DNA of 64,000 nucleotides from Herpetosiphon aurantiacus DSM 785 (lineage in GTDB: Bacteria; Chloroflexota; Chloroflexia; Chloroflexales; Herpetosiphonaceae): assembly GCA_000018565.1 (NCBI GenBank), contig CP000875.1:5595199-5659198 (forward strand), given 5' to 3'. Numbering within the stretch: the stretch's first letter is position 1; every line of letters begins with the position of its first letter. This document shows positions 4,581 through 35,066 of the stretch, piece after piece. The notes below the pieces were generated by a model. That model made no database searches, was not told the origin of the DNA, and saw nothing but the letters and a program-made list of their open reading frames with translations. The position numbers and the translations under genes were made by a program.

Positions 4581-6251
4581 CTAGCGATAAGGCCGCAACG
4601 CGCCGTAATAGTGATTGAGCCAGTAGCTGCTATAGATGCTGACTGCACCAACCCCCGAAGCGGGAGTCATCGCATTGACCATCACACCACCGCCAACGTA
4701 GATGCCTACGTGGGTGATGCCCGGGCCAGCAGTGCCAGCATAGAACAGCAAATCGCCTGGTTGCAAGTTGCTCATGCTTCCGATGAAGGTGCCATAAGCG
4801 CTGCTATATTGGCCAGCGGCACTGTGGGGCAAGCTGACCCCAACTTGGCGATACAAATACTTGGTCAAGCCGCTGCAATCGAAGCCGCTGCTTGGGCTTT
4901 CGCCGCCCCAGCGATAGTTGTAGCCAACATAGGCCCAAGCCATCGAAGCAACGTCGCCGCTAGCAGTACCACCACCGCCGCCACCGCCACCAGCAGGTTG
5001 GCTAGGAGTGCTCTTTTTGGGGGCAGCTGGAGCAACTGGTAATGAGGGCACATTGGTTGTGAATGGTACACGGCGGAACACAAAGTTGCTGACATCAACT
5101 AAATCTTGTGAGATCCAGCCTTTGGTACCTTTGGCGGTTTGAACCTTGACCCATTCTTTGTAACGAGCTAATAAGGTTAATTCAGCGCCTTTGCTCAGTT
5201 TGCCCAATGAATCGAATTTGGTGCTTGGGCCAGAGCGCAAGTTGATGCCTTCATCAGTTGCCCAACCGACCAAATCGGGGTTAGCTGATGGAATCGATTC
5301 AGCTTCGGCGATCCGTTCGGCAACGCCAGCTTCAAGATTCAAGAATTCGGCTGAAACCCAACCCACATTACCTTCACCAGTTTCAATTTGATACCAGCCT
5401 TGATAGCGGGCCAACAATGAAACTTGGCTATCAATTCCCAGCTTTTTCATGCTGATGTAGTCAGTACCAGGGCCATCACGCAAGTTCAAATTATCTTGGG
5501 TGATCTTGCCCACTTTGGCTGGTGGTGGGGTTGGAATATTTTGGGCATCAGGCAAAGCATCGATCACCGATTGCTCTAAATCAAGCAAATCAGCGGCGAG
5601 CCAACCTTCTTGGCCGCCTTCGGTGCGCACTTGCACCCAATCGGCGTGGCGAGCCACAACGGTTACCTTGGTGCCTGGTTCTAATTTATCGAGACGATCG
5701 AATTCAGTGCTTGGGCCATTGCGCAAGTTGGCAATATCGGCGCTCACTACTGATTCGGGATAGGTCGGGTTGTTATTAACTGGGCGGCCTACTGGAATCA
5801 CCAACGAATCATCAAAATCGGGGCTGCTAATTGGCCCATCGCCAACACCTGGGTCAGGCGTAGCTTCTGAATCATTGAGAGCAGTCAACGGAGCTGGTTC
5901 GTTGCGGTGGGTCATGGTCATCAAGCCGAGTGCTGGCCGAACTTGGCGTTCAGCAGTTGGCGATGCGCTGACCAAGAGTGCAGTATCTACCTGAGGCTTA
6001 GTGGCATCTTTGTTGACAACTAAACCAACTGGTAAGAGCGAAAGCACCATAAGATGAAGTAGGTAGCGCCGTGGAGCTTTGCGCAGGTACGATGGAACCG
6101 CACGAAGTGCAGAAACCGAACGGGCGTTAACGCGCTGGCGTAAACTGGTCGTTCGTAAAAGCGAATTTTCGTTGTTCACAGCCCGCTGCTGGAAGTCTTG
6201 CAGATCATGATCTTCTTGGATCAGATCATTCGAGGACTTAGCATCTTGCAT
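4581..6251 (-). CDS. SH3b-repeat NlpC/P60 cell-wall endopeptidase
   Basis: A 556-residue exported peptidoglycan hydrolase that would cut peptide stems. A basic N-terminal region precedes a hydrophobic segment at residues 63-79 that serves as a signal or anchor. Three bacterial SH3 domains follow at about residues 170-230, 247-310 and 328-390, each with an LR(N/D/S)GPST-like start. A Pro- and Gly-rich linker with nine consecutive Gly leads to the C-terminal NlpC/P60 domain. Its catalytic Cys is about residue 459 in GFDCSGL and the His is about 514 in GITHVGIYVG. A GGGAGG site lies upstream of the ATG. The gene stands alone behind a 450-base AT-rich region and ends at a strong terminator. Confidence 0.93.
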   Translation of the reverse strand: MQDAKSSNDLIQEDHDLQDFQQRAVNNENSLLRTTSLRQRVNARSVSALRAVPSYLRKAPRRYLLHLMVLSLLPVGLVVNKDATKPQVDTALLVSASPTAERQVRPALGLMTMTHRNEPAPLTALNDSEATPDPGVGDGPISSPDFDDSLVIPVGRPVNNNPTYPESVVSADIANLRNGPSTEFDRLDKLEPGTKVTVVARHADWVQVRTEGGQEGWLAADLLDLEQSVIDALPDAQNIPTPPPAKVGKITQDNLNLRDGPGTDYISMKKLGIDSQVSLLARYQGWYQIETGEGNVGWVSAEFLNLEAGVAERIAEAESIPSANPDLVGWATDEGINLRSGPSTKFDSLGKLSKGAELTLLARYKEWVKVQTAKGTKGWISQDLVDVSNFVFRRVPFTTNVPSLPVAPAAPKKSTPSQPAGGGGGGGGTASGDVASMAWAYVGYNYRWGGESPSSGFDCSGLTKYLYRQVGVSLPHSAAGQYSSAYGTFIGSMSNLQPGDLLFYAGTAGPGITHVGIYVGGGVMVNAMTPASGVGAVSIYSSYWLNHYYGALRPYR

Positions 6252-33667: not shown

Positions 33668-34504
33668 TTATTGTGCATCAGATTGCGCTAAATCGGCCTG
33701 CTGAGCCTCAAGTAAACGCGGCCAATCCTCACGCTTCCAGCGATAGGGCAATTGAATGAATGTGCCTGCTTGCGCTGCGTTGATCAATAGATTCAATCCA
33801 TGGTTAATTAATAGTTGCTGTTGTGCAAGATTATCTGGCTCGCCCAATACATGGCCGAACGGAAACTTCACGCTTAGCCCTCGTGGAATACCCAGCTGTT
33901 GGGCAATTTCAGCCAGCAGAAAAAAGCTGACGGTGCTAATCCCAGCCGCTTCTAAAACTCGTGCGATCAGTCCCACGGACTGATTACAGATGCCTCAGGC
34001 CGGAGTAAGCACTGCTGCTGTCACGCCAGCTTCGCGCAAATTGCGGGCAATGGTTGGGGCAGTTTGCTTGATTAATGTCTCAATATGTTCATCGGTGATA
34101 TGGCCCATGAAACTATAGCATGGCCCAAGGCTTTGAATTGTGCCACGGGCGGCGAGTTGCTGAAAATGGCTGATCGGCAAGACAATATTAATATCACGAT
34201 CAGCGTCACGATGATCATAATAATCGTGGGTAATCATCAAATCGTTGGGGCTAGCGGTGGCGGGAATCAAACGAAAATTGGGGTCGCCGTGCGGGTCGTG
34301 CATATCAAACACTGGATCGGTGCGTAGATGCACGCCGCCAGTGGTAATTAAACTGATTCGCTGTTGAGCTAACGTGCCATGCAGCGGAGTCCATGGAATT
34401 TGGGCTGCAACCGCCTGCACCTGAAAGCGTTTGGCCCAACGTTGGCCAAGCCCAGGCATTGCGCGATACAACCACGCCCCAAGTTGATTGAATGTTCGCC
34501 GCAT
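33668..34504 (-). CDS. GrdB-like selenoprotein with in-frame UGA (Sec)
   Basis: A single frame of 278 residues interrupted only by one TGA, at 33995-33997. It resembles the glycine/sarcosine/betaine reductase selenoprotein B family, as shown by ISLITTGGVHLRTDP, FDMHDPHGDPNFRLIP and HDYYDHRDADRDINIVLPI. Downstream of the TGA come CNQSVGLIARVLEAAGI and VKFPFGHVLGEPDN. The TGA falls where the family keeps Sec or Cys, giving U-G-I-C, a redox UxxC motif, at residue 170. An 8-pair hairpin with a GUG loop starts 10 bases past the UGA. I chose the ATG at 34504 (GGAG 9 bases before); an ATG at 34519 is possible. The function is probably thiol redox chemistry with an unknown substrate. trxA lies upstream on the same strand. 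Confidence 0.8.
33966..33997 (-). promoter_or_regulatory. Sec codon and bacterial SECIS hairpin
   Basis: The UGA (complement of 33995-33997) is followed after 10 bases by ATCAGTCC-GTG-GGACTGAT, a perfect 8-pair stem with a 3-base loop starting with G (33966-33984). The loop lies 18 bases after the UGA. This agrees with the published bacterial SECIS model: a loop 16-37 bases after UGA, with a guanine among its first two bases. SelB would bind here to insert selenocysteine. Confidence 0.72.
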
Positions 34505-34624: not shown

Positions 34625-34966
34625 TTATGCTTCGGTAACTGGGTTAAGAATCGCTTCGATTCGTTCTTGATAGATCTTCTTAGGGCCAGCGCCGACAATC
34701 CGATCAACTTCTTGACCGCCTTGGAAGAAGATCAAGGTTGGGATACCTTGGACCCCAAACTTCATAGCGTTGCCACTATCTTCATCGGTGTTAACCTTGG
34801 CAATCAACAATTTGCCTTGGTATTCGTCAGCCAACTCTTCGAGCACAGGGGCGATTGAGCGGCAAGGCCCACACCATGGTGCCCAAAAATCAACCAAAAC
34901 GGGAATATCGGAATTAATCACTGCTGATTCGAATTCGGCATCGCTAACTGCTAATGGCTTGGCCAT
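34625..34966 (-). CDS. trxA: thioredoxin
   Basis: A 113-residue thioredoxin, the general cytoplasmic disulfide reductant. The active site is WCGPC (Cys32 and Cys35), with VLVDFWAPWCG before it and the cis-Pro loop GIPTLIFF. The start is the ATG at 34966 with an AGGAGG site. It ends at a strong terminator. Its position beside a UxxC-containing selenoprotein gene could reflect a shared redox function. Confidence 0.96.
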   Translation of the reverse strand: MAKPLAVSDAEFESAVINSDIPVLVDFWAPWCGPCRSIAPVLEELADEYQGKLLIAKVNTDEDSGNAMKFGVQGIPTLIFFQGGQEVDRIVGAGPKKIYQERIEAILNPVTEA

Positions 34967-35066
34967 TGAAAGTCCTCCTTGATAGCTTGTGCATTGCTGC
35001 ACCTGCATGTAGTGTAGCACGTTTTTGGCAAAAGCTAATAAGCGTTATATTAATCTTTTGCTGCTC

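Follow-up and report, generated by a model that had tools for sequence, protein, structure and literature searches.

Reports of PrdB-type selenoproteins with a UxxC motif go back to 2005 at the latest, and the Herpetosiphon aurantiacus gene described here adds a further member to this group. In the Sargasso Sea survey, PrdB with UxxC is counted among the commonest selenoproteins, with 42 selenocysteine (Sec) forms and one cysteine (Cys) form (PMC1088965), and the GOS study reports 235 Sec and 110 Cys forms (PMC2398784). In two reviews PrdB is listed as UxxC (PMC9312934) and with one Sec (PMC13188914). PrdA, the partner of PrdB, is called a homologue of GrdE (PMC9751293). GrdB-type proteins act together with a partner subunit on substrates that are activated via a carbonyl group (PMC10838667, PMC13188914). 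The genome paper of Herpetosiphon aurantiacus 114-95T presents an aerobic heterotroph, and selenium is absent from its main text (PMC3368417). A literature search on Herpetosiphon, Chloroflexota and selenoproteins found no report of the PrdB-like gene in open-licence papers, within the portions of these papers that were available.

A PrdB-like gene with one in-frame UGA

Within the window (the whole stretch of 64,000 nucleotides of Herpetosiphon aurantiacus DNA that was analysed, C1:5595199-5659198 in a genome of three contigs totalling 6,785,430 bases), the gene consists of two stretches in the same minus-strand frame that are parted by a single TGA (Table 1), and gene calling with table 11 cuts this frame into two ORFs. 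Read through the TGA, the translation is ...AAVLTPA-U-GICNQSVGLIARVLEAAG... and continues to the next stop, a TAA; the motif at the TGA is UGIC, which corresponds to the UxxC with Sec of PrdB. The start codon is most likely ATG 34504, because this ATG, like the length of 278 codons and the position of the TGA at codon 170, is common to all six Herpetosiphon genomes; ATG 34519 and TTG 34525 are alternative starts. We consider it highly probable that the locus is one selenoprotein gene of PrdB-like type whose UGA is read as Sec; the case for selenocysteine insertion is very strong, although it is comparative throughout. The initial annotation had likewise proposed a single selenoprotein gene with its own SECIS, as opposed to two genes or a pseudogene, and the machinery, homologues and intact frames presented below agree with it; its frame, TGA and stem are retained, and the strand, which it had not given, is added.

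Table 1. Coordinates of the PrdB-like selenoprotein gene and associated features in the window.
Feature	Position	Strand	Basis or remark
PrdB-like selenoprotein gene	33668..34504	minus	ATG 34504 to TAA 33668-33670; 278 residues; one in-frame TGA
In-frame TGA, predicted Sec170, first residue of UGIC	33995..33997	minus	homologue comparison
Predicted bacterial SECIS hairpin AUCAGUCC-GUG-GGACUGAU	33966..33984	minus	sequence, RNAfold, synonymous covariation
trxA (thioredoxin)	34625..34978	minus	PF00085 110 bits, TIGR01068 120.9 bits

Gene neighbourhood

The trxA gene lies upstream on the same strand, with 120 bases between its stop and the start of the PrdB-like gene, and the order adk, trxA, PrdB-like gene, histidine kinase is kept in all four Herpetosiphon loci compared. 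This conserved adjacency, along with the statement in PMC13188914 that thioredoxin feeds glycine reductase, would suit a dedicated redox pair formed by the selenoprotein and the adjacent thioredoxin. We regard such a pairing as unlikely, however, since neighbourhood clustering of 80 loci did not find trxA near the PrdB-like gene outside Herpetosiphon, and within the genus other genes are syntenic as well; for this reason the adjacency says little on function and is probably not informative for the PrdB-like gene. The earlier proposal that the protein works beside trxA is accordingly not upheld by the neighbourhood, and the predicted fold looks Rossmann-like. A thiol or selenol redox role as such is plausible because of the UxxC motif. 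No conserved partner gene outside the genus emerged from the clustering of the 80 loci; small recurrent neighbours were an AhpD-like protein (4 loci) and a TetR-like regulator (5 loci), too few for interpretation.

Relationship to PrdB and GrdB

The PrdB model TIGR04483 matches the protein with 164.6 bits over 15-236 of its 238 positions, a homology over the whole length that is accompanied by similar size and the UxxC motif, and PrdB is matched by every one of the 57 sequences in a broad alignment. The NCBIfam models of GrdH, GrdF and GrdB score 36-49 bits, GrdB (TIGR01917) giving 36.4 bits with a protein of 278 residues compared with 602 bits and about 430 residues for the curated family, and PF07355 scores 27 bits, barely above its loose cut-off of 22 bits. 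The likeness to GrdB, GrdF and GrdH (PF07355, TIGR01917, TIGR01918) extends over about 150 homologous residues around Sec, including the UxxC found there, whereas their models span about 430 positions and match the Herpetosiphon aurantiacus protein with only 27-49 bits, and no GrdE was found in the genome. The term GrdB-like, used in the initial annotation, proved too loose: the closest curated family is PrdB, yet the score remains under the PrdB equivalog cut-off of 300.

A GrdE/PrdA-type partner was searched for with PF09338, which we take to cover PrdA as well. None of the order's 82 genomes, Herpetosiphon aurantiacus among them, gave a match, and as a control the identical search detects PF09338 in five other Chloroflexota. 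Because the PrdB score lies far under the cut-off and PF09338 was not found in these genomes, the protein is best described, on sequence comparison, as a PrdB-like orphan without a PrdA/GrdE partner. The matches to the PrdB and GrdB models could speak for a true component of one of these reductases, but the score amounts to about half of the PrdB cut-off and falls far under that of GrdB, no PF09338 partner is detected, and the host is described as an aerobic heterotroph (PMC3368417), so that we consider this assignment very improbable. The orphan "PrdB" proteins of the Sargasso Sea and GOS data (PMC1088965, PMC2398784) resemble the Herpetosiphon aurantiacus protein in being described as PrdB with UxxC, mostly as Sec and in some cases as Cys, and they are common in marine communities; they differ in being marine metagenome sequences, and going by the descriptions they may belong to the same subgroup.

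The AlphaFold2 model (mean pLDDT 93.4) has an alpha/beta fold in which Sec170 occupies the loop between the strand 163-167 and the helix 173-186. A Foldseek search with this model returned no match at E <= 0.001, and a PDB search with the sequence returned nothing credible. Rossmann-type folds predominate among the best VIA-align matches (Z up to 8.0 over 131-158 residues, rmsd about 3.6), which may reflect a mere common arrangement.

Homologues and conservation of both halves

When 84,980 species genomes and 400 Chloroflexota were scanned, homologues turned up in Desulfobacterota, Nitrospirota, Acidobacteria, Poribacteria, Bacillota, Actinomycetota and others. The sample is biased to members bearing the peptide QSVGL, which was itself one of the two search patterns, and with this leaning TGA occupies the Sec column in all but one of 110 distinct contexts of homologues from many phyla. 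Within the order, PF07355 matches 33 of 82 genomes, and the Sec-region homologues read at the Sec codon all have TGA. In 17 Chloroflexota homologues the column instead holds TGC or TGT, that is Cys (TAGCPLCHR...), the frame runs continuously straight through it, and both QSVGL and the stem described below are missing. Homologues therefore carry Sec or Cys at this column, in line with what the initial annotation had expected of the family.

Over the 108 codons 3' of the TGA, comparison with five other Herpetosiphon genomes gives dN of 0.01-0.09 and dS of 0.3-1.7, and the constraint 5' of the TGA is equally strong; judged by these rates, both halves of the gene are under purifying selection. Disrupted frames in close relatives, named earlier as the sign of a pseudogene, were not encountered in these genomes, where the frame is intact and both halves of the gene show a dN much lower than dS.

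Several variant members were also observed. In a Desulfobacterales MAG (L113, about position 5508), TCA (Ser) replaces the TGA and the stem is decayed, a possible recent loss of Sec. Four Sec forms (L131 on the minus strand, L137, L144 and L149) have Asp for the resolving Cys (UPLD or USLD, then HQSVGL), which means that some members of the family lack the UxxC pair. One member of the otherwise Cys-type group (L208, G119:C10, minus strand) reads UPLCHRTVV, with TGA at the column, and lacks QSVGL; inspection by eye suggests another stem, AUCGCA/UGCGAU, beginning at the same 10-base distance, and a further upstream TGA lies in the aligned stretch, so it is listed as a candidate Sec form. One genome (G050) has PrdB-like selenoprotein genes at two loci separated by about 2 kb (L046 and L080), one with UGLC and the other with UPLC.

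A probable SECIS hairpin adjacent to the UGA

Eight perfect pairs, AUCAGUCC/GGACUGAU, form a stem that begins 10 bases past the UGA and places a GUG loop (33974-33976) 18 bases past it; stem, loop and both distances are as the initial annotation gave them. The spacing between the in-frame UGA and this hairpin is thus that of a SECIS. The pattern TGA-N6-TGY-N3-CARTCCGTNGGAYTG has a single occurrence in the 6.79 Mb genome. In RNAfold the minimum free energy structure of a 39-nt segment (-13.4 kcal/mol, z = -1.95) includes the hairpin, thermodynamics that by themselves are only moderate evidence for a SECIS. Since the folding z-score is weak alone, covariation and codon-usage controls were applied, and the strong evidence for the hairpin is comparative, in that it is conserved and covarying.

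The facing Gln and Leu codons of the stem occur as CAG/CTG in 86 of 110 distinct contexts, as CAA/TTG in 15, as CAG/TTG (a G-U pair) in 3, as CAA/CTG in none, and in other combinations in 6. Codon usage does not account for this pattern, because TTG makes up only 17.5% of the remaining Leu codons in the CAA/TTG genes. The Fisher value for the codon pairing is 2e-15, a figure that overstates the number of independent events, as related sequences share history; the CAA/TTG state is present in several phyla. Synonymous choice in the hairpin region is likewise skewed relative to the rest of the same genes, with TCC for Ser at 88% compared with 20.5% elsewhere and GGA for Gly at 84% compared with 14%. 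The peptide QSVGL is probably kept by the RNA hairpin and not by protein chemistry, because the Cys homologues lack both.

Selenocysteine machinery and probable decoding of the UGA

The machinery on which the initial annotation made its reading depend is complete, with selA, selB, selD and tRNA-Sec all present in the one genome. SelA is encoded at C1:3739696 (533 bits), SelB at C1:1286745 (312 bits, other elongation-factor-like genes falling under the cut-off) and SelD at C1:1421105-1422037 (minus strand, L069, 378 bits), and tRNA-Sec lies at C1:6252166-6252258, where RF01852 scores 62.6 bits and ARAGORN calls a tRNA-SeC with anticodon tca (UCA). The SelD frame itself contains one in-frame TGA, because of which Herpetosiphon aurantiacus SelD is likely a selenoprotein too; the SelD genes of the other eight genomes searched have one in-frame TGA likewise. 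The tRNA-Sec gene (L039, 8167-8263) directly precedes an EF-Tu gene and a series of ribosomal protein genes and is distant from selA, selB and selD. SelA occurs in most of the Chloroflexota examined, and its presence does not split Sec from Cys forms.

A pseudogene or a pair of genes, with translation ending at the TGA and the frame beyond it being either a relic or an ORF of its own, would agree with the two ORFs called under table 11, but the conservation of the TGA and of both halves within the genus and the order and across many phyla, the low dN relative to dS 3' of the TGA, the conserved and covarying hairpin, the Cys homologues that read straight through and the Sec machinery in the genome leave it almost no probability. 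Decoding of the TGA as some other residue, by Trp insertion or near-cognate readthrough, is just as hard to credit, given that the sense residue at the column is Cys in 17 homologues and never Trp, that a hairpin occupies the SECIS position and that the genome encodes SelB and a tRNA-Sec with anticodon UCA.

A side branch with two UGAs

PrdB-like genes with two in-frame TGAs three codons apart, predicting U-P-I-U, occur in four genomes from three families (L204 in G052, L205 in G053, L206 in G348 and L207 in G455, each at about position 1500); a reversed control pattern gave 0 matches. The usual hairpin is lost from these genes, and a GC-rich stem, CGCGCU/AGCGCG, with the loop CGUGC lies 9 bases further downstream, where its GUG is exactly 18 bases past the second UGA. 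This branch is less expected than the single-Sec PrdB-like gene: UxxU is listed for Prx-like and mercuric-reductase selenoproteins and not for PrdB in the reviews PMC13188914 and PMC9312934.

Proposed mechanism and implications

On the selenoprotein reading, SelA, SelD and tRNA-Sec would produce selenocysteyl-tRNA, and SelB would bind the hairpin directly 3' of the UGA and deliver Sec at residue 170 of 278. The product, homologous to PrdB, which is the Sec-containing subunit of D-proline reductase, would be an orphan that is active without a PrdA/GrdE partner. The Sec170 selenolate would most likely attack a small reducible substrate; the Cys at +3 from Sec would then resolve the adduct, and a thioredoxin-type thiol donor would reduce the selenylsulfide. 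This catalytic cycle of selenolate attack, Cys resolution and thiol reduction is drawn from the motif and from PrdB and GrdB chemistry, and we put it forward tentatively. Without a GrdE/PrdA-type partner, the activation step would have to differ from that of the GrdB-type reaction.

More broadly, it is possible, although we hold it with less than even confidence, that these genes encode a PrdB-like selenoenzyme of wide distribution, which works independently of a PrdA/GrdE partner, occurs also in an aerobe and carries out a reaction so far undescribed, with QSVGL fixed by the hairpin and with some relatives having gained a second Sec (UPIU) and a hairpin moved 9 bases downstream, so that a GUG loop stays 18 bases from the second UGA.

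The locus reveals a probable selenoprotein in an aerobic, gliding, predatory bacterium of the Chloroflexota. It also provides clean comparative evidence for recoding, through synonymous covariation in the stem and the joint loss of stem and QSVGL where Sec is replaced by Cys. For the family, the finding is a warning against annotating orphan PrdB-like proteins as reductases of D-proline or glycine.
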